Origin: an uncultured Hellea sp.
Lineage (GTDB): Bacteria; Pseudomonadota; Alphaproteobacteria; Caulobacterales; Maricaulaceae
Assembly: GCA_905477785.1 (NCBI GenBank)
Contig: CAJQGR010000014.1
Span: 1-64,000 of the forward strand
DNA: 64,000 nt
Direction of reading: 5' to 3'
This document shows positions 50,288-64,000 of this stretch, piece by piece. The position numbers and the translations under genes are program-made. The first letter of the stretch is position 1, and every line of letters begins with the position of its first letter. The notes beneath the pieces were generated by a model, which saw nothing but the letters and a program-made list of their open reading frames with translations, was not told where the DNA came from and made no database searches.

Positions 50288-51961
50288 TCATGAATTAAGG
50301 CGTGCAAAGCCCCAAAGCGTGCCATAAAAGATTCGGCCTTCATCATCGATGTTTATGCCAGAGTAGAGGCTATTATATTTTTGATCGCCAATTATGTAGT
50401 GAAAGGTAGATTGTCCTTTGCTCCAGTCAAGAGCTTCAAGCGTCCATTCATTATCTCGTGCACCTATGAAATAGACATGATTGGAACCTAAGCTAACCCA
50501 AGGCACTCCATTAGGTGAACTGACCTTGGTATTAACCCAAGCTTGTTCAAGGCGCTGCAGATGAGGATTCCATTGAAATTTTTGAACGCCAAAAGGTTGG
50601 AATTTCGGGTTATTCCCGAACGGTCCAATTAATACACTTAAGGCACGGCCTTTTTTGGGAAAGAAGAATGGTACATTGCGGGGACGGTTATTGACCACCA
50701 TCGCGCCGTACCCTGCAACTACAACTGATTGCTCAGTTTGGATGTCCTCGATGTTTAGTTCACCCATGTTCACAGGAGCTTGCCCAGCTATACGGCTCGA
50801 GGGTGCATCTGGTAATGATTGCCAGTTTTCTGGAATTTCGTCACGCCAAAATAAAGTGACATTCATACGAATATCACCGTCAGTTATGACAACGAATTTA
50901 TCTTCTTCACCAAATCCCATAAGACTTGGTGTTGCCCCTGTGCCATTACCCGTTCCGTTGCGATATTTAGCTGTCCAAGCACCGTCACTTTCATTAATAG
51001 AAAATTTATCCCCCATCCAAACAACTTTATGCATGTGATTGCGAGATGCGAGGTAAATGCCGCCTGCATCATCTATAGCAGCCGAGTTTCGCACCCAGCC
51101 GTAACCAACGCCTTGCGTGGAAATATCTTCAGTATCTGCATGTTTTAGACGTATTATCCTGTACTCACTGAGATCGCTTGACACTGCAGCAAGATAACCA
51201 TTCTCAGCTGGAATAATAATCCAACCATCAAATGTCATATTCATACCAACGCTTGGGCCCGAAGCCTCCGGGGGTAGTTGAAAGGTGGCTTTAATAACAA
51301 TCTCTGATGTTGGATCGTTTTCAATTGCGTCTCCATAAGCCGTTATTATGCCATCATTATCAGCGATATAAACCCAATTGTTCTTGCCTACCATAATGTA
51401 GACTCCAGATAGGTCTTTCAGCGGGGACATTGCTTTGATCGCTGTAGGAATTCCAGTGGCACCATTATTTTTATTGAGCTTGGCTGTGAATTCGTTAGCC
51501 CATTCCTCGTTATAAGTTCCAGATACTGGCGTTTCAAAGTGGTCATAGATTTCATATGTTTCCTCATCAAGTTTATACAAGCCATTTACCCCATTAGCCC
51601 ATAAAATGCGCTTTCCATTTGGATAAACATTAGATGTGAAAGCTCCAAAGTAACCTGGACCAAGGTGAACATATGTTATATCATCTGCGCTAAGCCTTTT
51701 TGAGACATCAATGGGACCAGCAATTGCAGTGACATCCTGTTGCGCAGGTTCGCCATGCGGCATTGGATTAACACCTTCAGCCAGAAAGGTGTTCTTTGGA
51801 GGTAAATTTGGTATCGAATTAACATCAATTTTCTCGGTCATCTGAGGCGCAAGTGGTAAGTCTAAATCTGGGCGTGGAACTTGCTCCTGATGGCAATATT
51901 TTAGATAGGCTACCAGAGCTATAGCCAAGACTAATAATATGATTATCTTTGACTTTTTCAT
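50288..51961 (-). CDS. Membrane-anchored beta-propeller protein B, unrecognised
   Basis: A 557-residue protein with an N-terminal anchor (IIILLVLAIALVAYL), a Pro-rich linker, and a long all-beta region of propeller-type repeats (VYPNGKRILWANGVNGLYKLD, GVYIMVGKNNWVYIADNDG, GGIYLASRNHMHKV, GRIFYGTLWGFARL). It shares the phrase type GxGTGATPSLMG with propeller A and is probably its paralogue. No CxxCH haem site and no classic PQQ tryptophan motif was seen. It lies 42 bp downstream of propeller A. Periplasmic location is inferred. Confidence 0.8.
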   Translation of the reverse strand: MKKSKIIILLVLAIALVAYLKYCHQEQVPRPDLDLPLAPQMTEKIDVNSIPNLPPKNTFLAEGVNPMPHGEPAQQDVTAIAGPIDVSKRLSADDITYVHLGPGYFGAFTSNVYPNGKRILWANGVNGLYKLDEETYEIYDHFETPVSGTYNEEWANEFTAKLNKNNGATGIPTAIKAMSPLKDLSGVYIMVGKNNWVYIADNDGIITAYGDAIENDPTSEIVIKATFQLPPEASGPSVGMNMTFDGWIIIPAENGYLAAVSSDLSEYRIIRLKHADTEDISTQGVGYGWVRNSAAIDDAGGIYLASRNHMHKVVWMGDKFSINESDGAWTAKYRNGTGNGTGATPSLMGFGEEDKFVVITDGDIRMNVTLFWRDEIPENWQSLPDAPSSRIAGQAPVNMGELNIEDIQTEQSVVVAGYGAMVVNNRPRNVPFFFPKKGRALSVLIGPFGNNPKFQPFGVQKFQWNPHLQRLEQAWVNTKVSSPNGVPWVSLGSNHVYFIGARDNEWTLEALDWSKGQSTFHYIIGDQKYNSLYSGINIDDEGRIFYGTLWGFARLNS

Positions 51962-52003
51962 GTTAGACTCCGTATTTGAATATTAAGAAAGTTTTCAGCA
52001 GTA

Positions 52004-53467
52004 TTATTGATCTTTAGCCATAATAATCCCGGTGCGAATACCTACATAAGCAGCTTCATTAGGGCCCAAAACTACAGGTGCCGTAACGGATGAGTACTTA
52101 TCCCAAAACCCGCCAGCCCCTTTTCCGATGAGGCGGTCCCATAAAATGTCACCTGTCTCATAATCCATAGCGGTCAAGTACCATCCACCGGTTTTAGCGC
52201 CTTGAAATGGTAACTTGAATGTATAAATGTAAATCAGACCAGTCGCCGTGGATAATCTCGGTAAAGAGTGCGATTGCATCTGGCTTGCCCAGACAGTTTT
52301 GCAGCCTGAGCGGTCTTCATTGATATCAACCCGAGTGACCCCTGGCGCAGTTTCAAGAGCATTACCCATATAATCATGGCCAAAATCATTTTGAACAATA
52401 AGAGCATTTTTATACGAAACAAGCGAGTTCTCCGTAGCGCTAGCGCCTGGTTTAAAAACCGGTTCCTTACAGACAACTCGGGAGCCTTTTATATCAGCTT
52501 TGCGCTTATAAACCATTATATTGGTTGATGGGCTACCATCATCAGCAATTGACACAAGATCATCACCTATAAGTGTCGGTGAAGTTCCTGACCCATGAGA
52601 GAGTGTACCAATCTTTTGCTCTGAGCCGCGCTCATAAGTTTCTCGCCAGACCGGCTCAGGCTTGCGAGTTTGTTCATTTATCCCAAACATATAGAGCGCA
52701 TGGGTCGAGACCATATAAACACCGTTCATGTCAACAGCGAAAGAGTTCTGAACAACCTCGCCAAATTCGGGTAGATTGAACGTATGAAATTTACCGTCTG
52801 TTTTGTCGCGATAACCGATAACTCCACCGGTAGTAACAAACCACAGGTTTCCGTTCCAATCTGGCATGACATCATGAATGTTAGCTCCTTCCGGCAAAAG
52901 ATCACCTAATGGATAATTTTCAACCACCTCCCAAGTTAACGTCTTCCCCTTTTCTAGGATTTCAATAATTTTTATGGAATTATCATTTGGGGCGAGAATA
53001 GCGCGATTTTGATTGTCCAGATGAAAATAAGCGCCGCCGCTATTATCTTGATTGTCCTTTTTAGGCATTTCGTACTTAGCTAATGTTTCCAAAGTTTCTG
53101 GATCCAACAAATGCAATGTTACCTTATTAAGATTAAGCGCAACAGTAATGAGGCGGCCTTTATCATCAAAAGAAATATTAGGTGCGACGCCGATGATTTT
53201 GCCAAAAGATCTATGCTTAGAAACTGTATTATTTCCCAGAGGCCCGCCGTAATCACTCACATCTGTATTATAACTTCCTGAGTGCATGCCGCTACGTTGG
53301 GGTTCTGTCAGTAGAGGGTGCAATGGAGTATCAGTGGGTAATAAGGGCCGAGCTGCTATTGCATCACCCATCTCGGTAGGGACATCATTTTTTGGTATTT
53401 TCATCCACACAGCATAGATCAGGCCTGCGCCCAAAATGGTGGCTGGTATTAAATAACGTTTTTTCAT
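52004..53467 (-). CDS. Membrane-anchored beta-propeller protein A, quinoprotein-like
   Basis: A 487-residue protein with an N-terminal anchor (LIPATILGAGLIYAVWM), then propeller-like repeats (ISFDDKGRLITVALNLNKVTLHLLDPETLETLAKY, GNLWFVTTGGVIGYRDKTDG, SHGSGTSPTLIGDDLVSIADDG, WYLTAMDYETGDILWDRLIG). The last is PQQ-repeat-like, but no cofactor can be claimed. Its ATG overlaps the stop of the molybdenum enzyme gene by ATGA, so the two are translationally coupled. Confidence 0.82.
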   Translation of the reverse strand: MKKRYLIPATILGAGLIYAVWMKIPKNDVPTEMGDAIAARPLLPTDTPLHPLLTEPQRSGMHSGSYNTDVSDYGGPLGNNTVSKHRSFGKIIGVAPNISFDDKGRLITVALNLNKVTLHLLDPETLETLAKYEMPKKDNQDNSGGAYFHLDNQNRAILAPNDNSIKIIEILEKGKTLTWEVVENYPLGDLLPEGANIHDVMPDWNGNLWFVTTGGVIGYRDKTDGKFHTFNLPEFGEVVQNSFAVDMNGVYMVSTHALYMFGINEQTRKPEPVWRETYERGSEQKIGTLSHGSGTSPTLIGDDLVSIADDGSPSTNIMVYKRKADIKGSRVVCKEPVFKPGASATENSLVSYKNALIVQNDFGHDYMGNALETAPGVTRVDINEDRSGCKTVWASQMQSHSLPRLSTATGLIYIYTFKLPFQGAKTGGWYLTAMDYETGDILWDRLIGKGAGGFWDKYSSVTAPVVLGPNEAAYVGIRTGIIMAKDQ

Positions 53468-55650
53468 GCTTGAATTTTTTTCCTTATTTTTTCCAATTTT
53501 ACAGGCACACCGTGAACAACCGCATTTCCTGTGAGTTCGTCCATGACGTTATGATCAGTAATATCATTAAGGCTTGCGCCAGGATGGGCATTTGCGACTC
53601 GTTGCCTAGTTCCTTTGCGGGTATGACCCCAGGCATGTGGCAAACAGATAACACCTGGCATGACGTTATCAGTAATAACGACAGGAACCTCGATACTGCC
53701 GACAGCTGAAGTGATGCACGCCATATCACCCTCTTTTAATTTCCGATTTTTAGCATCGTGGGGATTTACAAAAAGGGTACAAGTGGGTGGACCCTTTACT
53801 AAGCGCTGACTATGGTGAAGCCAGCCCAATGTGCGCTCGGTTAAACGCGAGATAATTAATAGGTCATATTCTTCTTCATTATAACCTGCCACTCCTTCAA
53901 ACCAGCGTGCTTTGAGACGAGGCAAGTCGGCGAGTATCAATTGGGGTGCGGCATCAATCTTCTTATCATTCGTAAATAAGCCTTCGGGCAATATGCGCTT
54001 TGGCTTTCCAAGAAATACGCCATGCGGATTTTCTTTCAATATGTTGAGCGTGAGGCCTTTTTTAAACGGGTTTATTCCTGATCCGTAGGGTCCAAATCGT
54101 AGCCCCATGGCAAGAATAAACTCAACTGTGATAAATTTACTTAAAGCACCAAGCAAGCGGACCTTTAATTTTTTTAAGGGGTTACTTGCCTTCTTTACTG
54201 CCCAGCGCCTTACAATCTCACCTATGATTTCAAAATCTGTATATCCTGGCTTTTCTGGTTTAAATAGTCTTGGGTTATAGGCCGCCCAATTTATTGTATC
54301 GTACGTATGATAGAATAAGTCATAATGACTTTTTTCAAAAGGACCTACTGGGGGCAATATAATATCTGCATGTCTTGTCGTCTCATTAATATACGGATCT
54401 ACTGCAACCATAAAGTCAAGTTGTCCTAAAGCCTCTTCAAATAGTTTCCCATTTGGCATAGATAAGGCACCATTTCCTGCTATTGCTACAAGTCCACGAA
54501 TTTTCCCTTTACCAGGTGTCATAATTTCTTCTGCTAATACAGCCACCGGTAGTTCCATTGCGAATTCTGGGCGGTTGCTCACACGACTTCGGTAAGTATC
54601 ATAACTTCCTCTTGCGCCTTCTATTGCTGTAAATGTATCAATAGCAGTGGTTGGAAACATCATACCCCCCGGCTCATCAAAATTAGCTGTTATTAAGTTT
54701 ATAACCATCATCAACCAATTGCAGAGACCACCGAACTTCTGCATAGACAAGCCTGTTCTCCCATAACATACGGCAGTTTTAGATGTTGCAAACTCACAAG
54801 CTATGCGCTCGATATCATGTTGCGAAATTCCTGTTACTTTAGCGATTGTTGGCAAGTCAAAATTACTTAATGCAGGTTGTATTTTTTCCCAGTTTTTTAT
54901 GTGAGGGCCAAGTCTACCCTTTTTTGCTAACCCTTTTGAAAATATTGTTTTTATAAGTCCAATTAGAAATAAGGCATCAGTTGAGGGTTTTATGAAGTGG
55001 TGTTCATCACAGAATTCTGCACTTTCTGTTCTTCGTGGATCGATTAAAACAACTTTTCCACCCCGTTCTTGGATGCCTACGAATTTTTTATGTGGATTTG
55101 CTCCTGTAGACATCATAGCCCCATTAGAAACCTTCGGGTTTGAACCTAATAACAAGAAATAATCTGTTTGATCTATATTTGGTACTGTTGCCATAAATTG
55201 ATGACCAAGCATAAAATACCAGACGAAGTTGTGCGGCTGTTGATCAACTGTTGAACCGGTATAAGTATTTTGAGTGTTTGCTACCTGACGTAAGGGGTGC
55301 ACGGTTAAAAGAGCTCCAATATTATGAGCAGTACTTCTCCCTTGGTAAGTTGCTACTGCATTATTCCCATATTTTCTTTGAATGGCTGCTAGCTTAGATG
55401 TAGTTTCATTGAAAGCTTCGTTCCAGGAAATCTCTATAAATTTACCATTTACCTTTTTCATTGGTTTATGAAGTCTATCTGGGTCAATGTGGATGTCTTG
55501 TAATCCTATTGGTTTTGGACAAATTTCACCTTTACTCAAAACATGTTTTGGATCTCCTTTGATTGAAAGTATCTTGCCACCTTCATGTTCTATAGAAATT
55601 CCGCACATGGTTTCGCAAAGATGACAAGTTCGGTAATGGATTTCTGACAT
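53464..55650 (-). CDS. Bis-MGD molybdenum/tungsten oxidoreductase with 4Fe-4S site
   Basis: A 728-residue DMSO-reductase-family catalytic subunit. The N-terminal cluster ligands are C9, C12, C16 and C44 (TCHLCETMCGI and EICPKP). Conserved MGD-binding regions follow (LLLGSNPKVSNGA, VVLIDPRRTESAE, VAIAGNGALSMPN) and the C-terminal aspartate-decarboxylase-like barrel (INPHDAKN-like VNPHDAKNRKLKEGDMACIT, CLPHAWGH). At the usual Cys/Sec ligand position it has Asp136 in GSTVDQQP. There is no Tat signal, so it is likely cytoplasmic. The substrate is unknown. It starts at TAATG with the TetR gene. Confidence 0.92.
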   Translation of the reverse strand: MSEIHYRTCHLCETMCGISIEHEGGKILSIKGDPKHVLSKGEICPKPIGLQDIHIDPDRLHKPMKKVNGKFIEISWNEAFNETTSKLAAIQRKYGNNAVATYQGRSTAHNIGALLTVHPLRQVANTQNTYTGSTVDQQPHNFVWYFMLGHQFMATVPNIDQTDYFLLLGSNPKVSNGAMMSTGANPHKKFVGIQERGGKVVLIDPRRTESAEFCDEHHFIKPSTDALFLIGLIKTIFSKGLAKKGRLGPHIKNWEKIQPALSNFDLPTIAKVTGISQHDIERIACEFATSKTAVCYGRTGLSMQKFGGLCNWLMMVINLITANFDEPGGMMFPTTAIDTFTAIEGARGSYDTYRSRVSNRPEFAMELPVAVLAEEIMTPGKGKIRGLVAIAGNGALSMPNGKLFEEALGQLDFMVAVDPYINETTRHADIILPPVGPFEKSHYDLFYHTYDTINWAAYNPRLFKPEKPGYTDFEIIGEIVRRWAVKKASNPLKKLKVRLLGALSKFITVEFILAMGLRFGPYGSGINPFKKGLTLNILKENPHGVFLGKPKRILPEGLFTNDKKIDAAPQLILADLPRLKARWFEGVAGYNEEEYDLLIISRLTERTLGWLHHSQRLVKGPPTCTLFVNPHDAKNRKLKEGDMACITSAVGSIEVPVVITDNVMPGVICLPHAWGHTRKGTRQRVANAHPGASLNDITDHNVMDELTGNAVVHGVPVKLEKIRKKIQA

Positions 55651-56261
55651 TACGAGTCCAATTTAATTTTATTATTTGCTTTTAACTCTAAGGAGAGGGC
55701 GGTAAAAATATGATCTAATCCAGAATCTATAGTTGAAGGAATATATGATTTTTGTTGAGATTTAGATAGTGATTGATGAAAAGTTGTATCCATTATAGAA
55801 CACCCAATCATGAAGCCAGTTAATGAACTCGTAGCATTTATTGTTTGCTGCTGATTAAATCCAGCTGTTCTTAGAACACCAAGTATTTTACTTAGCACCT
55901 CCATGGCATTAGGTCCAAATCGTGGGGCATTCCCTAGATATGGGTGTAGACTAGGCATGCTCTTAAGAGAGGTATACATATTAGTATATGTGGCTCTTAA
56001 CCATTCTTTCCAATCTAAATTTGAAATTTCGTGATTGCATACATCTACATCACAAACAAATGCATCTAATACAGAATTAATAAGATCGGACTTATCTGAA
56101 ACATGACGATAAATAGCCATGGGGGTAACACTCAGCTTATCGGCTAAAGCTTTCATGGTCAGGTAATCGAAGCCTTTATCTTTAACTAATTCCAATCCTG
56201 CATTAGCAATAATTGATCGAGATAAATTCCTTTTGGTTATTCGTTTAAATGAATTTTTCAT
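55650..56261 (-). CDS. TetR-family transcriptional regulator
   Basis: A 203-residue regulator. The N-terminal helix-turn-helix is SRSIIANAGLELVKDKGFDYLTMKALADKLSVTPMAIYRHVSDKSDLI. The C-terminal ligand-binding domain (about 75-200) is divergent. It overlaps the molybdenum enzyme gene by 1 nt and has a perfect palindrome directly before its own start codon, so autoregulation of the whole operon is likely. The ligand is unknown. Confidence 0.92.
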   Translation of the reverse strand: MKNSFKRITKRNLSRSIIANAGLELVKDKGFDYLTMKALADKLSVTPMAIYRHVSDKSDLINSVLDAFVCDVDVCNHEISNLDWKEWLRATYTNMYTSLKSMPSLHPYLGNAPRFGPNAMEVLSKILGVLRTAGFNQQQTINATSSLTGFMIGCSIMDTTFHQSLSKSQQKSYIPSTIDSGLDHIFTALSLELKANNKIKLDS

Positions 56262-56304
56262 ATGTATATAACATATACATAATAATTGTATATTGTATAT
56301 AACA
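56262..56304. promoter_or_regulatory. Operator-like palindrome and repeat upstream of tetR
   Basis: ATGTATATAACATATACAT (56262-56280) is a perfect 8-bp inverted repeat with a 3-nt centre, immediately upstream of the TetR start codon. The 11-mer TGTATATAACA within it (56263-56273) recurs at 56294-56304, 31 bp away, which is about three helical turns. This is a plausible double binding site for the adjacent TetR protein. Confidence 0.5.
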
Positions 56305-56850
56305 AAGAAAAGATTATAAATATATTCTATTGAGTATTAATAGTGTTTAAATTCAGTACTTTATAAATTATACCTTATCTATTTTATTTATGTGATATGT
56401 TAATACGTCTGATTATTTAGAAATAATTATATTTATAGTTGCAAGTCATTCGCAAATAGAATAGTGGTAATATATAATGCAAATGCAAATCCATGCGGTA
56501 TATGGGATTGAAATAAGTGACAGAATGATACGAACTGCACTGTCAAAGCTACCCGATTTCTATGAAAGCGAACTCGAAAAACCTGACCCTAGCTGAGTTC
56601 TTTGATTAATGGCCTGAGCCACGAATATAATAATCAAACTTCTGCGAACCTTAGAGATTAGTATTTATGGCTGTGATATCGCTATGACCGTGACTTATTA
56701 ACAGGCGCACTCTCGATAATTAGGGTCAGCTTATAGCCTTACCTTGTTTCGCAATTGCGGCCTTAACACGCGCGGGTTACCCTTAGAAACTGATCTTTTC
56801 ATGTCCTTTACTTAACAAGAGACTAGTGGCTTGCCAAGGGCAGGGTAGTT
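56305..56850. other. Gene-poor intergenic stretch
   Basis: About 545 bp without a convincing gene. The left third is strongly AT-rich and may hold the tetR operon promoter. It contains a 39-codon ORF at 56477-56596 (plus strand, IHAVYGIEISDRMIRTALS) that vaguely recalls an IS256-type transposase segment, too short to assign. The right part is less AT-rich and shows stops in the frames read. It looks like decayed sequence at the edge of the accessory region. Confidence 0.45.
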
Positions 56851-57261
56851 GTGCAAATTGAGGGTATGAAACATTTGACCCTTATCCTCACACTCTTTTT
56901 CTCAACAATGTTTGCATCATCCGCATATGCAGATTGGGAGAAGATTGGTGATGATGCGGTGGGTAATACCTTCTATGTAGACTTTGATAAGATGCGTAAA
57001 AATGATGGGTATGTGTACTATTGGGAACTACAAGACCTGCTCGTACCTAATGAGTATGGAAACTTGTCTTTCGAAGTTTATTATCAAGGTGATTGTGAAT
57101 TATTCAGATACAAAGATTTGAGAGCAATATACTACAAACAGTCAAAGGGTGAAGGACGTGGAGAGACCGTTCCGCTTTCTAACGCTGAATGGAAATACCC
57201 AACTTCAAAGAGTATGGCGGAGAAAATACTCACCCAAGTGTGTTTCATAGCGGGTTACTAA
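56851..57261 (+). CDS. Surface-adhesin-E-like exported protein
   Basis: A small exported protein. The signal peptide is KHLTLILTLFFSTMFASSAYA with cleavage before DWEKIGDD. The mature part DWEKIGDDAVGNTFYVDFDKMRKNDGYVYYWELQDL follows the pattern of adhesin E (Adhesin_E) domains, and two Cys could form a disulfide. GTG 56851 has AGGG about 6 nt upstream. ATG 56866 gives a cleaner signal peptide but its GAGGG is too close. Function beyond export is not known. Confidence 0.7.
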   Translation: MQIEGMKHLTLILTLFFSTMFASSAYADWEKIGDDAVGNTFYVDFDKMRKNDGYVYYWELQDLLVPNEYGNLSFEVYYQGDCELFRYKDLRAIYYKQSKGEGRGETVPLSNAEWKYPTSKSMAEKILTQVCFIAGY

Positions 57262-57330
57262 CCTTGGGGGCGTCCTCGTTACCACTAATTTCGGCAGGTT
57301 TTGAAATAATATTATAAGAAAAACAATTCT

Positions 57331-57351
57331 ATTGACATTATAAGTGCCAAT
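57331..57351. promoter_or_regulatory. Dyad ATTGACA-N7-TGCCAAT upstream of the GST-sulfatase unit
   Basis: The arms ATTGACA (57331-57337) and TGCCAAT (57345-57351) form an imperfect 21-bp dyad starting 36 bp upstream of the GST start codon. The left arm includes a consensus -35 hexamer TTGACA. A near copy occurs at 61916-61936 in front of the second sulfatase. A shared repressor site is inferred. Confidence 0.45.
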
Positions 57352-57366
57352 AATTAATTCTTATAT

Positions 57367-58392
57367 ATGATAAATCCAATAGACCTAATGGGCGCACCGG
57401 GATCGCCATATACCCGCAAGATGTTATCGCTTATGCGTTTTCGAGAAATTCCTTTTCGTGTCCACTGGACGACTGGGCAAGTGCCGAAGGGTTTTCCCAA
57501 ACCGAAAGTAGCTTTGCTACCAACATATTTCTTGCCGGGTAAGGGTGGTGAAATAGTGGCGGTTACAGATTCGACGCCGCTTATAAGGCGTTTTGAAAAA
57601 GCCTATGAAGGCCGTTCTGTAATTCCGGCTGATCCCATTATGGCATTCTTTAATGACTTGATTGAAGATTTTGCTGATGAATGGCTGACCAAAGCGATGT
57701 TCCATTATCGTTGGGCGCATGAGGCTGATAACAAAAATGTTGGACCGCTGCTCGTTTTTTGGGGGAGTTCGGTTATCGATGACGGAACCGCACATAACTT
57801 ATCTGACCACTTCACACAACGCCAGATAGATAGGCTCTATGTCGTCGGATCTAATGAAATAACAGCGCCCATTATTGAGGCAGCCTATATTCGGTTTGTT
57901 GACATACTTGACAGATTAATCGCGCAAGAAGGCTATGTGCTTGGTAGTCGGCCATCGGCGGCCGATTTCGCGGTTTTTGGGCAGATGACGCAGCTGGCGA
58001 TTGTCGAACCGACCTCGGCTAAAATAACTCGGGACATATCGGCTCGTGTGCGGGCGTGGATAGACCGCATGGAGGATTTGTCGGGACTCTCACCCCAGGC
58101 GGATGACTGGTTTGAGGCTTCAAGTGCCAAAGAGATCCTAGGGCCGTTGTTAACAGAAATTGGCCGGACTTATACACCTGTTATGCTGGCTAATGCCAAA
58201 GCTGTCATGACAGGCAAAAAGACATTTGAAACGCGCGTTGACGACGCGCCCTGGACACAGCCTACATTTAAGTATCAGGCCAAAACGCTGGGCTGGATTC
58301 GAGAAGCTTATTTTGATTTGAAGTCGAAAGATCAAAAACACGTCGATGAAATCTTAAAAGGGACCGGCTGCGAAGCCTTGTTTGGAACATGA
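57367..58392 (+). CDS. Glutathione S-transferase family protein
   Basis: A 341-residue protein with an N-terminal thioredoxin-like domain (IDLMGAPGSPYTRKMLSLMRFREIPFRVHW, ALLPTYFLPG, VTDSTPLIRRFEKAYEGRSV) and a long helical C-terminal domain including LGSRPSAADFAVFGQMTQLA. It is about 100 residues longer than typical GSTs. It is higher in GC than the core genes. The stop overlaps the sulfatase start by ATGA. ATG 57367 has no Shine-Dalgarno; the transcript may be leaderless. Confidence 0.85.
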   Translation: MINPIDLMGAPGSPYTRKMLSLMRFREIPFRVHWTTGQVPKGFPKPKVALLPTYFLPGKGGEIVAVTDSTPLIRRFEKAYEGRSVIPADPIMAFFNDLIEDFADEWLTKAMFHYRWAHEADNKNVGPLLVFWGSSVIDDGTAHNLSDHFTQRQIDRLYVVGSNEITAPIIEAAYIRFVDILDRLIAQEGYVLGSRPSAADFAVFGQMTQLAIVEPTSAKITRDISARVRAWIDRMEDLSGLSPQADDWFEASSAKEILGPLLTEIGRTYTPVMLANAKAVMTGKKTFETRVDDAPWTQPTFKYQAKTLGWIREAYFDLKSKDQKHVDEILKGTGCEALFGT

Positions 58393-60062
58393 AATTGCGT
58401 TGGAAACTCTTAACGGGGCTGGGGCTCGCGGCCATTATTGGCGGGACTTATGTCTATCAAAACCGCGTCGATATAATTCTTAAGCGCGTGACATCCCAAG
58501 GGAAGCCAGAGGTTGGACCGACTATAAATATTGATTGGGCACAAGGGCCAGACACTACCGCTGAAAATAGTTTACCTAATATCGTTTTCATTCTTGCCGA
58601 TGATCTTGGTATCAACGACATCTCGACATTTGGCGGTGGTCTAGCCAGCGGGAAAATATCCACGCCTAATATAGATCGCCTTGCAAGTGAAGGGGCTATT
58701 TTCACCCAAGCCTATGCTGGCAATGCGACCTGCGCGCCGTCTCGGGCTATGTTGATGACGGGGCGCTACCCCACGCGGACGGGTTATGAATATACGCCCA
58801 CGCCGCCGGGCATGGGCCGTATGGTGACGATGATTGCCAATGACCTGAAATCCAAAAGCGATAGTCCGTTGCCGCGTAATGTCTACACGAAACCTGAAGG
58901 CGATGTGCCGGATTTCTATGGCCAAGGCCTGCCTTCAGAAGAAATTACGATTGCCGAAACGCTCAAGGATAAAGGCTATCATACTGTCCATATCGGAAAA
59001 TGGCATCTCGGATATGGCGACCGCGCTGCCCATAATCAGGGCTTTGAAGAGTCCTTGCATATGGATGATATGTATTATTTGCCCAAAGACGATGAGAATG
59101 TCGTAAATGCAGAACTCGACTTTGACCCGATTGATAAATTCCTCTGGGCGCGGGGTGATTTTGCCAATAGTTTTAATGGCGGAGAGCCTTTCCGGCCCGG
59201 CGACTATTTGACAGATTACTGGACAGATGAGTCCCTAAAAGTGATTGAGGCCAATAAAAACCGCCCCTTCTTTTTATACCTGGCCCATTGGGGCGTCCAC
59301 ACGCCTCTGCAATCAACAAAAGCCGATTATGACGCCGTAGACGCGGCTCTAGGTGAGACCGCCACCCACCGCTTGAAAGTTTATGGCGGTATGCTCCGCG
59401 CTCTCGATCGGTCTGTCGGACGCGTCATGGACAAGCTTGAAGAGGAAGGCCTTGCTGATAATACCATAATTGTCTTCTCAAGCGATAATGGCGGGGCCGG
59501 CTATATCGGCGTCGACAATATCAACGCCCCTTATCGCGGCTGGAAGCTGACCATGTTTGAAGGCGGCATCCGCGCGCCCATGTTTGTAAAATGGCCCGCC
59601 CGTATCGCGGCTGGGACTGAAATCGACACGCCCGTCGCCCATATTGATGTCATGCCCACACTTATGGCCGCAGCCGGAGCAGACCTACCAGATGTGGAAA
59701 TCGATGGCCGCAATATGCTAAGCCTCATTGCGGATGATGGCGGTTTCACCCGCGAAGACGATGCGCTCTATTGGCAGAGCGGCTATCTGCAAGTCGTGCG
59801 AGCAGGTGATTGGAAGCTTCAACACGAAGGCCGCCGCGATAAGAACTGGCTGTATAATTTGGCCGATGACCCAACCGAGAAAAATAACCTCGCGGACACC
59901 AATCCGGAAAAACTCGCACAGCTCATAGCGCTCCTAAAGAAACACCAAGCCGGACGCATTCCAACGCTCTACCCTTATTCAATGGAAGTCCCAATCCAGA
60001 TTGATAAGACGCTAGCGGACAAGGCGGCGGAAGATGATGTCGTGGCGTGGTGGCCGAATTGA
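58389..60062 (+). CDS. Type I sulfatase (formylglycine-dependent), membrane-anchored
   Basis: A 557-residue alkaline-phosphatase-fold sulfatase. The N-terminal anchor is LLTGLGLAAIIGGTYVY. Metal ligands are Asp71-Asp72 in ILADDLG, the formylglycine Cys115 is in CAPSRAMLMTGR, and IGKWHLGYG and FSSDNGGAGYIG carry further active-site residues. It should hydrolyse a sulfate ester in the periplasm after maturation of Cys115. The substrate is unknown. It is translationally coupled to the GST gene. Confidence 0.93.
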   Translation: MKLRWKLLTGLGLAAIIGGTYVYQNRVDIILKRVTSQGKPEVGPTINIDWAQGPDTTAENSLPNIVFILADDLGINDISTFGGGLASGKISTPNIDRLASEGAIFTQAYAGNATCAPSRAMLMTGRYPTRTGYEYTPTPPGMGRMVTMIANDLKSKSDSPLPRNVYTKPEGDVPDFYGQGLPSEEITIAETLKDKGYHTVHIGKWHLGYGDRAAHNQGFEESLHMDDMYYLPKDDENVVNAELDFDPIDKFLWARGDFANSFNGGEPFRPGDYLTDYWTDESLKVIEANKNRPFFLYLAHWGVHTPLQSTKADYDAVDAALGETATHRLKVYGGMLRALDRSVGRVMDKLEEEGLADNTIIVFSSDNGGAGYIGVDNINAPYRGWKLTMFEGGIRAPMFVKWPARIAAGTEIDTPVAHIDVMPTLMAAAGADLPDVEIDGRNMLSLIADDGGFTREDDALYWQSGYLQVVRAGDWKLQHEGRRDKNWLYNLADDPTEKNNLADTNPEKLAQLIALLKKHQAGRIPTLYPYSMEVPIQIDKTLADKAAEDDVVAWWPN

Positions 60063-60071
60063 GAGGTGGTG

Positions 60072-60176
60072 CTAATAGTCACCTGTAATTCTATTTTGCT
60101 TCCGTCCAGTGATGATTAATGGACGCCATATTTCAGGCGTATCGGGGACGCCGTGAAGGAAGATTTTCTCAGCCAT
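60072..60176 (-). pseudogene. Truncated alpha/beta-hydrolase N-terminus
   Basis: A 34-codon minus-strand ORF begins with IFLHGVPDTPEIWRPLI, the first strand and oxyanion HG loop of alpha/beta hydrolases such as epoxide hydrolases or haloalkane dehalogenases. It then changes to unrelated sequence (ITGRKQNRITGDY) and stops. The start lies 5 bp after the stop of the 230-aa gene, as expected for the next gene of that operon. Its body appears to have been replaced by the GST-sulfatase unit. Confidence 0.5.
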
Positions 60177-60181
60177 GGCGA

Positions 60182-60874
60182 TTAAAATAACACCCTGCGC
60201 TTACCCCTTGGTTTCGGTGTTTTTTGCTCTGGCGGAAGCGTGCATATCCGCTCCATTCGCGTAATAGACCCGTCGATATATTCCCAAATCATATCGTTGC
60301 GGTCTCGATAGCGCCGAACAACGACAGGACCAAAGCCAAAGGCGTTGAACTCTAGCTTGCCATTGCGCCAGACCGCGCTGGCGGAGGTGCGCATGCAGTA
60401 GTCTTTGCCGCCCATGATAAAGCTGACCGAGCCTTCTGTGTCATTGGAGCCGACGCCGCCTGTACTATTGGGGCCTAGGTCGTGGATGATGCCGGATGTT
60501 GTGATGACAGTGCGCGCGCCGCATTGCTCGACCCGTTCAATATGCCCGATCTTGCCGGAGACCGCCTTCCAAAGCCCGCGAATGTCTTGCGCGCCGTCCA
60601 CGAGCGGCTCGGTGCAATCGGCCAGAATAGGCATGGGGAATTGCTCATAGGCACAGCCCGGCGTATTGCCTTTTGGGATATCCACAGCCATCAGGCCTGA
60701 GCCGTCAAGTTCGGGGAGGGCGCAGTAATCGACCTTACTACCATCCCCTGCCAAAACGGCCGGGTCCGTCATATTGGCGGGACGCGGTGAGCAATAAGCC
60801 AGCCAGAAAAGACAGATGAATAAGAAGAAGAGCAGCCCGATTATGCGCCGTCCCCATTTCAAAGCTTTTGCCAT
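60182..60874 (-). CDS. Membrane-anchored protein of unknown function (230 aa)
   Basis: An N-terminal membrane segment (RIIGLLFFLFICLFWLAYC) is followed by a soluble region with several Cys (DYCALPEL, GCAYEQF, LADCTEPL, EQCGAR, DYCMRTS, RICTLPP), consistent with a disulfide-containing periplasmic domain. The segment VISTSGIIHDLGPNS-like VITTSGIIHDLGPNSTGGVGSND shows no family I can name. Its ATG overlaps the stop of the 54-aa gene (TAATG). It is GC-rich relative to the core genome. Confidence 0.72.
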   Translation of the reverse strand: MAKALKWGRRIIGLLFFLFICLFWLAYCSPRPANMTDPAVLAGDGSKVDYCALPELDGSGLMAVDIPKGNTPGCAYEQFPMPILADCTEPLVDGAQDIRGLWKAVSGKIGHIERVEQCGARTVITTSGIIHDLGPNSTGGVGSNDTEGSVSFIMGGKDYCMRTSASAVWRNGKLEFNAFGFGPVVVRRYRDRNDMIWEYIDGSITRMERICTLPPEQKTPKPRGKRRVLF

Positions 60875-61038
60875 TAATCAGCTGCCGCCAGATAGTCATA
60901 ACACCCTGTGTCTTTTAGCAGGCTATCCAAAAGGTCTTTGGTATCGCTGGATAGGTTTTTATATCGCTGGCGCAGAGCGGGCAGGCATTCGTCATGGCGA
61001 TTATGGGCTTTGCGTTTACAGGGTTTTGTTTCGGTCAT
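60874..61038 (-). CDS. Small Cys-containing cytoplasmic protein (54 aa), unrecognised
   Basis: A 54-residue ORF (MTETKPCKRKAHNRHDECLP to DTGCYDYLAAAD) sits between the DJ-1-like gene (9-bp gap) and the 230-aa gene (1-nt TAATG overlap). It is charged and helical with Cys at 7, 18 and 49 and has no signal. Tight spacing on both sides is the main evidence that it is real. AGAGAG precedes the ATG. Confidence 0.6.
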   Translation of the reverse strand: MTETKPCKRKAHNRHDECLPALRQRYKNLSSDTKDLLDSLLKDTGCYDYLAAAD

Positions 61039-61047
61039 TATTTCTCT

Positions 61048-61893
61048 CTATCTTTCTGCGACCAGGCGCATCATTTCATGGGCGGTCACATGGCCAGAAT
61101 TTTGGTTTTGCCCAGTCACAAAACGCCCTTCATTATCGACCACTGTGTGCGTAGCAAACAAATCTTTCTTAGCAGTGCTGGCTTCAAACTGCGCACCCGC
61201 AGCCCGGAGCGCGCTTTCAGGGTGAAGCGGCGTGAAATCAATCTTCAATTCCTTGATTTGTTTATCCGTCACGCCGGACATTTTACGCCCTGCAATCAGG
61301 AGATTACCATCTTTGTCTTTGGCTTTCACAAGTCCGAGCGGGCCGTGGCAGACGCCGCCGATAATGGCATCGCTCTCATAATAGGCTGCACTGATTTTCT
61401 CGGCCAAAACATCGGATTGACCCAGATCATAAGCTGCGCCCCAACCACCAGCGAGAAAGATAACATCATACCCGGTGAAATCGACATTGTCGATTTTCAA
61501 AGATTTTGTGACTTTGGATTGGAAAGTGTCATCCTTGCGGGAGCGTTTGTCAGCGTCAGTAATGATCATGAATTTGTACGACATGGGATCAATCGGGATT
61601 GTGCCGCCTTTAATACTGGCGATATTAACATCCATGCCTGCGTCTTGAAAATCATAATAAGGCACTGAAATTTCTGAACCGAAAACGCCGGTTTTCTTGC
61701 CTTTAGTTTCGCCAGGCTTGTTTAGCACGCCGTGGCTGGTTGAGATGATTAAAGCGCGTTGCCCCGGAAGTTCATAACTCGGTCCAGCATAGTCGGGATG
61801 AAGACCGCGGGATTTCAAAATGGAGGGGAGCGCCATGGCGAAAATAGCGGCGAGTGCCACTAATATTCCCAGACCTATCAGACCTTTTTTCAT
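61048..61893 (-). CDS. DJ-1/PfpI-family protein with N-terminal membrane anchor
   Basis: A 281-residue type 1 glutamine-amidotransferase-like protein of the Hsp31-like group. The nucleophile elbow is GGVCHGPLGL, and FLAGGWGAAYDL supplies the Glu/Gly region. Residues 1-20 form a membrane segment (IGLGILVALAAIFAMALP), so it should face the periplasm. Known relatives act as glyoxalases, chaperones or isocyanide hydratases; which applies is unknown. A GTG 12 nt upstream (61905) is in frame, but ATG 61893 is preferred. Confidence 0.87.
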   Translation of the reverse strand: MKKGLIGLGILVALAAIFAMALPSILKSRGLHPDYAGPSYELPGQRALIISTSHGVLNKPGETKGKKTGVFGSEISVPYYDFQDAGMDVNIASIKGGTIPIDPMSYKFMIITDADKRSRKDDTFQSKVTKSLKIDNVDFTGYDVIFLAGGWGAAYDLGQSDVLAEKISAAYYESDAIIGGVCHGPLGLVKAKDKDGNLLIAGRKMSGVTDKQIKELKIDFTPLHPESALRAAGAQFEASTAKKDLFATHTVVDNEGRFVTGQNQNSGHVTAHEMMRLVAER

Positions 61894-61915
61894 GGTAATT
61901 CTCACTTATGTAAAT

Positions 61916-61955
61916 ATTGACACTCATTGTGCCATTATATATAAATGCTGTCAAT
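61916..61955 (+). promoter_or_regulatory. Promoter and operator of the second sulfatase
   Basis: TTGACA (61917-61922) and TATAAA (61940-61945) are separated by exactly 17 bp. The left half of the ATTGACA-N7-TGCCA dyad (61916-61936) covers the -35 box. A further inverted half-site TGTCAAT follows at 61949-61955, close to the predicted transcription start. The arrangement suits repression. It lies in the divergent gap to the DJ-1-like gene. Confidence 0.6.
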
Positions 61956-61971
61956 AATTGGAGAGACTAAA

Positions 61972-63729
61972 GTGCATTTAAAGTTGGTATTTTTGCTCTT
62001 GGCGCTTTTAGTCTTCTCTGAAAACGCTCATGCAAAAGACCTTTCGCAAGAGACATCATCCCCGAATGTCGTGATGATACTTGTGGACGATTCCGCGCTG
62101 ATGGATTTCGGCGTTTATGGCGGGGAGGCGCAGACGCCCAATATTGACGCATTGGCCTCGCGCGGGGCGATGTTTACGCAATACCGTACATCGCCGCTGT
62201 GCTCGCCGACGCGGGCCATGCTTTTAACTGGACTTGATAATCACAAGACAGGCATCGCGACTATCCCAGAGATATTGCCAGCTGAGCAAGAAGGAAAAAC
62301 CGGATATTCTATGGCGCTTGAACCTAGCGTTCTGACGATAGCGGATCGCTTGAGGGATAAAGGCTACCGCACGCTGATGAGCGGGAAGTGGCATATGGGG
62401 GAAGAGGCTAATGAGATGCCGCAAAATCACGGTTTTGATCGCTCATTTGCGCTCGCGGCCTCAGGTGCGGATAATTGGGAAGATAAATCTTATATCCCCT
62501 ATTATGCTGATGCCCCTTGGTTCGAAGATGGCGTAGAGGCTAGCCTTCCCGAAGATTTTTATTCTTCTAACTTTATCGTTGATAAGATGGTCTCTTATTT
62601 GGAAGAGACAGACTCTTCAAAACCCTTTCTAGCCTATCTCCCATTTCAAGCCATTCATATCCCTGTTCAGGCCCCACCCGAATTTACCGCGAAATATAAA
62701 GGCCGATTTGATGAAGGCTGGCATGTGCTTCGCGCTGAGAGGCATAAACGGGCGCAAGAGCTTGGATTTATAAGGCGCGGCGCGCCCTTGGCACCCATGC
62801 CTGATGATGCGCGGGAATGGGATGATCTTAATGTTGAAACACGGGCACTCTATGCGGCGCGGATGGAGGTTAATGCGGGTATGTTGGACGCGATGGATCA
62901 CCATATTGGTCGGTTTGTGTCTTACCTGAAAGATAAGGACCAGTATAAGAATACGATTTTTGTAATCACCTCTGACAATGGTCCAGAACCTAATCGTGGT
63001 GACCATGATCTTCGGCTTGGACTGTGGATGAAGTTAAATGGTTACAATATTGATTTGGGCAAAATAGGCGAAAAAGGGAGCTGGGGGTTTATCGGAACAG
63101 AATGGGCTCTGGCTGCGGCATCTCCAAGCTCGCTTTATAAATTTTACGCCACGGAAGGCGGCATAAGAGCGCCGTTAATTATGGCAGGACCCGGAATAGA
63201 ACCAAGCCGTATTCATTCTCCAGCCATGGTGACAGACGTCACGCCAACCTTAATGGATATGCTTGGTATTAGCCCCGCGGTGCAAGGCTATATACCCATG
63301 ACGGGACGTAGCCTGCTACCAATTCTTAAAGGCAAGGCGCAAAGCGTATATGTGGATGATGACATCCGCGCAATTGAGGTCTCCGGTAACTCGGCTCTTT
63401 ATAAAGGCGATTATAAAATCCTGCGGAGCATTCTGCCCGTTGGGGATGGGAAATGGCGTTTATTTAACTTGGCCGAAGACCCGGGTGAGACGAAAGACTT
63501 AAGCACCGAGCAACCACAGATACTGCAAAATATGCTAGCGCATTACGAGGACTATGCCGCTGAGATGGGCGTTCTCGACATGCCTGATGGTTATGATTCG
63601 GTAAAACAAATCGGCAAGAATGCTGTAAAACGGATGTTCGCACATCATGGGAAATTCATACTGTTGATTGGTTTTGGTCTACTGGCATTGCTTATCGGCT
63701 TTTTTCGCTGGCGCAGGAAGAGAGTCTGA
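61972..63729 (+). CDS. Type I sulfatase (formylglycine-dependent) with C-terminal membrane anchor
   Basis: A 585-residue arylsulfatase-like enzyme. The signal peptide is LVFLLLALLVFSENAHA. Metal ligands are Asp39-Asp40 in ILVDDS, and formylglycine Cys77 is in CSPTRAMLLTG. SGKWHMGEE and VITSDNGPEPNRGDHD are further active-site blocks. The C-terminus ends in a membrane helix (ILLIGFGLLALLIGFF) and RWRRKRV. ATG 61945 overlaps the -10 box, while GTG 61972 has GGAGAG 6 nt upstream, so GTG is the start. The substrate is unknown. Confidence 0.92.
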   Translation: MHLKLVFLLLALLVFSENAHAKDLSQETSSPNVVMILVDDSALMDFGVYGGEAQTPNIDALASRGAMFTQYRTSPLCSPTRAMLLTGLDNHKTGIATIPEILPAEQEGKTGYSMALEPSVLTIADRLRDKGYRTLMSGKWHMGEEANEMPQNHGFDRSFALAASGADNWEDKSYIPYYADAPWFEDGVEASLPEDFYSSNFIVDKMVSYLEETDSSKPFLAYLPFQAIHIPVQAPPEFTAKYKGRFDEGWHVLRAERHKRAQELGFIRRGAPLAPMPDDAREWDDLNVETRALYAARMEVNAGMLDAMDHHIGRFVSYLKDKDQYKNTIFVITSDNGPEPNRGDHDLRLGLWMKLNGYNIDLGKIGEKGSWGFIGTEWALAAASPSSLYKFYATEGGIRAPLIMAGPGIEPSRIHSPAMVTDVTPTLMDMLGISPAVQGYIPMTGRSLLPILKGKAQSVYVDDDIRAIEVSGNSALYKGDYKILRSILPVGDGKWRLFNLAEDPGETKDLSTEQPQILQNMLAHYEDYAAEMGVLDMPDGYDSVKQIGKNAVKRMFAHHGKFILLIGFGLLALLIGFFRWRRKRV

Positions 63730-63747
63730 GATGTTGAAATTCTTATA

Positions 63748-63852
63748 ATGGATCACGCAGGAGTCGACTATGCCGCCTTGGATAAGGCCGTTGATGGCGC
63801 CTTTACTGAAGATAGTCGTCATGTGGATGATATGAAAAGCACATGGGGATGA
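63748..63852 (+). pseudogene. Possible serine-hydrolase gene remnant
   Basis: A 34-codon ORF (MDHAGVDYAALDKAVDGAFT) 18 bp after the second sulfatase recalls the N-terminal segment of beta-lactamase-type serine hydrolases, then stops. A 23-codon ORF overlaps it by ATGA (63849-63920). Nothing convincing was found from 63921 to the window end. It may be the truncated third gene of the sulfatase unit. Confidence 0.25.
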
Positions 63853-64000
63853 CCTTTCCGCCAAAATTTTTTGATCTCGCGGGACTTTTAAAAGATGTAC
63901 TGGATTCCCTAGACGGGTGATTACATACAAAAAAAGCGCGCCAACTAAACCGAAAGCCAAAGTTAACCTGTCAGATGATTAGTCTATCCCGTCAATAATT

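Follow-up and report, generated by a model that had tools for sequence, protein, structure and literature searches.

A putative TetR-controlled operon of an uncultured Hellea sp. joins a predicted cytoplasmic molybdenum enzyme to two propeller-like proteins of the kind found in steroid-degradation clusters

The stretch of DNA analysed here, called the window, comprises 64,000 nucleotides from an uncultured Hellea sp. (contig CAJQGR010000014.1) and carries on its minus strand an operon of four genes, in the order tetR, a gene for a molybdenum oxidoreductase (Mo-enzyme), and two genes for membrane-anchored proteins that we call propellers A and B. All four open reading frames (ORFs) are present (4/4). 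The coordinates below refer to the whole window.

Positions 55650 to 56261, minus strand: tetR, TetR-family repressor of 203 amino acids with TetR_N and TetR_C_1 domains (PF00440, 8.9e-08; PF02909, 4e-10).
Positions 53464 to 55650, minus strand: Mo-enzyme, predicted cytoplasmic molybdopterin oxidoreductase of 728 amino acids, with an Fe4S4 motif, Molybdopterin and dinucleotide-binding domains, and Asp136 at the Mo-ligand position.
Positions 52004 to 53467, minus strand: propeller A, membrane-anchored, predicted periplasmic beta-propeller of 487 amino acids with a conserved cysteine pair (333 and 389).
Positions 50288 to 51961, minus strand: propeller B, membrane-anchored, predicted periplasmic protein of 557 amino acids, homologous to propeller A.
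Positions 56261 to 56281, minus strand: probable TetR operator, a perfect inverted repeat, TATGTATAT-GTT-ATATACATA, with 9-bp arms and a 3-bp spacer, lying over the tetR start codon.

The tetR and Mo-enzyme genes overlap by 1 nt (TAATG at 55650), the Mo-enzyme and propeller A genes overlap by 4 nt (ATGA, 53464-53467), and 42 bp (51962-52003) separate propeller A from propeller B. A preliminary description of the locus had proposed this one-strand arrangement, and both the ORF coordinates and the genome of the sister species, Hellea sp. L011 (= G450; family Robiginitomaculaceae), bear it out; the interval it gave, 53464-56304, covers just the Mo-enzyme, tetR and the tetR leader, so that both propellers fall outside. 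Indeed, the sister species has kept all four genes with identical junctions. Each gene product is 90-93% identical between the two species, with a ratio of nonsynonymous to synonymous substitution rates (dN/dS) of 0.09-0.11, and all four genes are therefore under purifying selection. Retention of the operon with unchanged junctions and low dN/dS indicates that it is more than a chance string of genes. Among the 137 Robiginitomaculaceae genomes searched, the complete set was seen in just these two, and a plasmid collection searched with the Mo-enzyme, A and B returned distant relatives and their contexts, with no second three-gene set.

The first gene belongs to the TetR family, as its TetR_N helix-turn-helix domain scores 32.2 bits for a cut-off of 24; in the NCBIfam collection the best model, MftR2/TetR, is far under its cut-off. 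The inverted repeat over its start codon is unchanged in the sister species, although large parts of the leader around it differ. Since about 9% of composition-matched shuffled leaders hold a comparable inverted repeat, its conservation and its position are the stronger arguments for an operator. Thus tetR is probably autoregulated, and TetR control of the operon, which had been put forward before, appears likely from this conserved 9-bp repeat.

The Mo-enzyme is a member of the dimethyl sulfoxide (DMSO) reductase, or MopB, superfamily, with Pfam scores of 107.5 (Molybdopterin), 63.7 (Molydop_binding) and 34.2 bits (Fe4S4) for cut-offs of 24, 26.8 and 22.7. Its CxxCxxxC...C iron-sulfur (Fe-S) motif starts at residue 9, which leaves no room for a signal peptide and agrees with the earlier statement that the protein has its own Fe-S site and no twin-arginine translocation (Tat) signal. 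With neither an export signal nor an N-terminal extension, the enzyme is predicted to be cytoplasmic. Both single-sequence and profile alignments place Asp136 opposite the metal ligand, a Cys in FdhF and PsrA and a selenocysteine (Sec; X) in 9t1s, and by this alignment Asp136 would coordinate the molybdenum. The Asp is conserved in 27 of the 27 homologues compared, two distant ones included, mostly within the motif [ST]xDQxP.

No NCBIfam model reaches its cut-off on the Mo-enzyme, the nearest being formate dehydrogenase (Fdh-alpha, 193 of 666 bits) and NasC (164 of 1100 bits). With such scores, and with Asp136 where Sec or Cys is required, the protein falls outside the formate dehydrogenases and the Nas enzymes. 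It also falls outside class II, which includes steroid C25 dehydrogenase (S25DH), ethylbenzene dehydrogenase (EbDH), SerA and DdhA: it has no Tat signal, the operon contains no genes for Fe-S beta or heme gamma subunits, and the class II model TIGR03479 scores 69.9 for a cut-off of 984.75 bits. The Mo-enzyme belongs to an uncharacterised clade of cytoplasmic proteins of the superfamily, in which the position of the Sec or Cys of formate dehydrogenases is invariably Asp. In a table of MopB lineages from 2023, Asp is entered as a ligand only for NarG and exported enzymes, and a cytoplasmic lineage of solo enzymes with Asp is absent (PMC10100899, Table 1).

Homologues that are 38-44% identical over most of the Mo-enzyme occur in scattered genera (289 genomes of the class sampled); 17 of the 137 family genomes have a homologue, and further ones were found in Deinococcus, Streptomyces and Nocardia in the plasmid collection. 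In three loci of the family (G448, G449 and G536) the homologue is part of a fusion of 1244-1266 amino acids with flavodoxin, FAD-binding and NAD-binding domains, which suggests NAD(P)H as the electron partner of the clade. The genome of the window itself carries a second homologue (C65, 41%); descent of the Mo-enzyme from a recent copying of that gene was rejected by the tree, where C65 groups with other family members and the window enzyme and its sister stand apart. As to gene surroundings, the fused homologues at L133:3923-7657, L134:5612-9412 and L135:4514-8248 each adjoin an unknown gene of about 245 amino acids and a short-chain dehydrogenase/reductase (SDR) gene, with an FG-GAP-type protein and a DedA-like gene in addition at the L133 and L134 loci. 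In G176 (L065:4242-9461) two tandem paralogues, about 43% identical to the window protein, flank a gene of 258 amino acids.

Near its N terminus each propeller has a single hydrophobic segment (1.67 for A and 2.29 for B on the 19-residue Kyte-Doolittle scale), consistent with the anchored, periplasmic proteins envisaged in the preliminary description. Propeller A contains just two cysteines, 333 and 389, both invariant in the A family; the pair suggests a disulfide, which would fit a location outside the cytoplasm. The two proteins are homologous, as had been proposed, with an hhalign match over 430 profile columns (99.9%, E 5e-36) and 23% identity by BLASTP (E 1e-7). Neither of them has a Pfam, an NCBIfam or a convincing single-sequence PDB match. 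Their profiles match designed propellers, quinoprotein alcohol dehydrogenase and lactonase/lyase propellers. The AlphaFold2 (AF2) predictions, made from alignments four rows deep with window and L011 sequences only, gave a mediocre model of A (pLDDT 58, pTM 0.64), whose Foldseek matches are many beta-propellers, BamB first, with a TM-score of about 0.5, and a failed model of B (pLDDT 35). The propeller fold is thus supported but not proven, by profiles for both proteins and by a structural model for A only.

The census of the 137 family genomes places these propellers in a steroid context. The 3-oxosteroid 1-dehydrogenase KstD, identified by its best PDB match (7p18, E 6e-155), is encoded in 17 of the genomes, B-type propellers in 16 and full-length A-type propellers in 8. 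All 16 B genomes lie within the 17 KstD genomes (Fisher P 5.7e-20, shared ancestry being ignored), and all 8 A genomes also carry both KstD and B. Moreover, the propellers usually occur without a Mo-enzyme, in or beside steroid-degradation clusters. The B gene adjoins KstD in five genomes, mostly with a sulfatase gene, and is within a few genes of KstD in three more (G444, G449 and G478); in another genome a run of ipdAB, acyl-CoA and ketosteroid isomerase (KSI)-like (SnoaL) genes precedes B, the IpdA matching 6co6 (E 1e-71). Aldehyde dehydrogenase genes are also among the B neighbours. A is located after cytochrome P450, Rieske protein and SDR genes in five genomes, where the best PDB match of the Rieske protein is KshA, and G444 and G478 each have A and B in a single cluster, separated by about 26 kb. 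One genome outside the family holds a 49% identical B homologue beside KstD-like genes. Almost no homologues of A (385 genomes of the class) or B (398 of the phylum) were found outside the family at E 1e-15. Full-length homology and the N-terminal anchor place the window proteins in this family of steroid-cluster propellers, as defined in the present analysis. Literature searches on propellers in steroid clusters returned nothing on point.

Two sets of more distant B relatives were also noted. A B-family homologue is found on small mobilizable plasmids of Bacteroides and Parabacteroides (L033:5614-7167; plasmid matches H7-H16), and in L033 it comes after DJ-1/PfpI and helix-turn-helix genes. 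Other distant homologues (L031:1506-4953, L035, L027 and L028) are beside genes resembling glucose-methanol-choline (GMC) oxidoreductases, in Sphingomonas pBAR2 and Cupriavidus CH34, or beside a pyrroloquinoline quinone (PQQ) dehydrogenase-like gene and acyl-CoA genes, in G120 and G140. A wider link of B-type propellers to alcohol oxidation is possible.

The draft genome of the window (1.83 Mb) encodes KstD (C8, 85%), IpdA (C7, 83%), a P450/Rieske/SDR/A operon (C7), a second B (C77) and MoaA. The host is therefore a predicted steroid degrader able to make the molybdenum cofactor. Taking the genome and the families together, we propose that the operon is a TetR-controlled accessory module for the catabolism of steroids, or similar polycyclic lipids, in Hellea-type marine bacteria, a reading to which we give about an even chance. 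Binding of a steroid-like compound would lift TetR off the operator at its own start codon and thereby induce transcription of the whole operon. The sequences of propellers A and B support a location on the periplasmic face of the inner membrane, to which they would be anchored; there they may bind the steroid as it enters or begin to process it, presumably like their relatives from the main steroid clusters. In the cytoplasm, the single-subunit Mo/Fe-S enzyme would then hydroxylate or reduce the compound once it is imported, with a soluble carrier giving or taking the electrons; the diflavin-fused relatives would link this carrier to NAD(P)H. The substrate, the direction of electron flow and the role of the propellers are inferred.

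In a more specific form of this proposal the Mo-enzyme would be a cytoplasmic hydroxylase or dehydrogenase of the Asp type, soluble and made of a single subunit, with steroids as substrates in an aerobic host. NAD(P)H-linked carriers would replace the Fe-S and heme subunits of S25DH, and two periplasmic steroid-handling propellers of an unnamed family would supply the substrate. The Asp-ligated S25DH performs the O2-independent hydroxylation of sterol side chains (PMC6016249), and a cytoplasmic analogue of it is attractive but unproven; we judge this form to be distinctly unlikely.

Several observations weigh against a steroid role. The co-occurrence with KstD is confounded by shared ancestry, and the window operon itself lies outside the steroid clusters, with no steroid-ring genes adjacent and with KstD and IpdA elsewhere in the genome. 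The propeller superfamily is not steroid-only, since remote B homologues neighbour GMC or PQQ dehydrogenase genes or a polyketide synthase gene, and others are carried by small Bacteroides plasmids. The Mo-enzyme clade is present in family genomes without KstD (6 of 17), and its members are usually lone genes amid unrelated neighbours. Furthermore, both propeller A (1.8) and the Mo-enzyme (1.17) of the window are on long branches of their trees and may have shifted in role, and the fused relatives reveal the electron partner of the clade, not that of the window Mo-enzyme.

Among the alternatives, the one that survives best is a detoxification module, in which TetR would sense a toxic small molecule, the cytoplasmic Mo-enzyme would reduce it with NAD(P)H, and the propellers would be envelope factors with no steroid role. 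TetR control is typical of detoxification, the diflavin fusions are suggestive of an NAD(P)H-fed reductase, and many of the Mo-enzyme homologues are lone genes outside catabolic clusters. However, both propeller families track KstD completely within Robiginitomaculaceae and the operon is devoid of stress and efflux genes, and we consider this explanation unlikely, if a serious contender.

That the Mo-enzyme is an assimilatory-type reductase for nitrate or another oxyanion, placed in the operon by chance, is very unlikely. Its top NCBIfam similarities, its cytoplasmic location and the fusion of its relatives to a diflavin reductase would all suit such an enzyme, but the scores are far under the curated cut-offs and an Asp replaces the Nas-type Cys (PMC10100899, Table 1).

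Little credence can be given to a new kind of membrane complex in which the propellers would be subunits of the Mo-enzyme or would transfer electrons to or from it. Overlapping genes in one operon, conserved in two species, speak for it. Against this, the inner membrane is predicted to separate the enzyme, inside, from the propellers, in the periplasm, which makes a direct complex unlikely; neither propeller has a cofactor motif, and the cysteine pair of A suggests a disulfide. Moreover, no A or B propeller was found beside Mo-enzyme homologues (about 30-44% identity) in any other locus inspected, so the propellers are not obligate partners of the enzyme, and would rather be steroid-cluster proteins that have been joined to a Mo-enzyme than its dedicated subunits. 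The partnership considered in the preliminary description is weakened in this respect, since each occurs without the other and the neighbourhood search found them together in the sister species and apart elsewhere; its suggestion of a substrate-processing role may hold and gains a steroid context. As far as tested, its view of an undescribed gene set holds, the propellers matching no characterised family.

The notion of a decaying or accidental gene string with no joint function, to which the two-species distribution and the long branches might point, is hard to reconcile with dN/dS of 0.09-0.11 in all four genes and with unchanged junctions and operator, and is most improbable.

Upstream of tetR, a block at 56430-56491 is common to the window and the sister species and contains TTGCAAGTCATTCGCAA, which we take to resemble a Fur-type box; in the sister species a small divergent ORF, for which the window has no counterpart, follows the block. 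Synteny with L011 is lost at about 56492 and regained at G000:C72:366. From 56492 to 64000 and on to G000:C14:68186 (L030) the G+C content is 0.44-0.54 (window mean 0.39). This stretch encodes a GST (glutathione S-transferase), two sulfatases, and PfpI-like, TetR and metallo-hydrolase-like proteins, and represents either an island, a rearrangement or a chimeric contig. The two sulfatases (58389-60062 and 61945-63729) were considered as steroid sulfatases and kept out of the operon, given their 25-31% identity to the cluster sulfatases, the higher G+C and the broken synteny.

Steroid breakdown in marine settings is under-explored (PMC5790920). The accessory-module reading offers the first pointer to a function for a propeller family that is an orphan, without Pfam or NCBIfam model, and that is confined in Robiginitomaculaceae to KstD-bearing genomes. 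It also draws attention to a molybdoenzyme clade, predicted to be cytoplasmic and solo, with Asp at the ligand position and some members fused to diflavin domains, that does not appear in the 2023 MopB table.

Within the superfamily, the nearest solved structures to the Mo-enzyme are FdhF of the hydrogen-dependent CO2 reductase (7qv7) and thiosulfate/polysulfide reductase (2vpw). All three domains of the Mo-enzyme (Fe4S4, Molybdopterin and dinucleotide-binding) recur in them, and FdhF likewise lacks an export signal, whereas the Asp at the Sec/Cys position and the lack of partner subunits set the Mo-enzyme apart, and no formate dehydrogenase, Nas or Phs model reaches its cut-off. With the class II S25DH and ethylbenzene dehydrogenase it has in common the Asp at the Mo-ligand position (PMC10100899, Table 1; by alignment for the window enzyme) and possibly the steroid context; those enzymes are periplasmic heterotrimers with an Fe-S beta subunit, a heme gamma subunit and a Tat signal (PMC6016249), all of which the window enzyme lacks. 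The molybdopterin-diflavin fusions belong to the same clade, with 38-39% identity and the SxDQxP motif, and differ by their flavodoxin, FAD-binding and NAD-binding domains and by their location outside a propeller operon of this type. BamB, virginiamycin B lyase, SMP-30 and PQQ-type propellers resemble A and B in fold class only, without sequence-family membership or transferable function. The closest relatives of the propellers are the uncharacterised steroid-cluster proteins of Robiginitomaculaceae, which are about 32-37% (A) and 59-66% (B) identical and have the same membrane-anchored layout; unlike those of the window, they lie beside P450/KshA-like or KstD/sulfatase/ipdAB genes and no Mo-enzyme. 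The gene set is a new combination of known parts.

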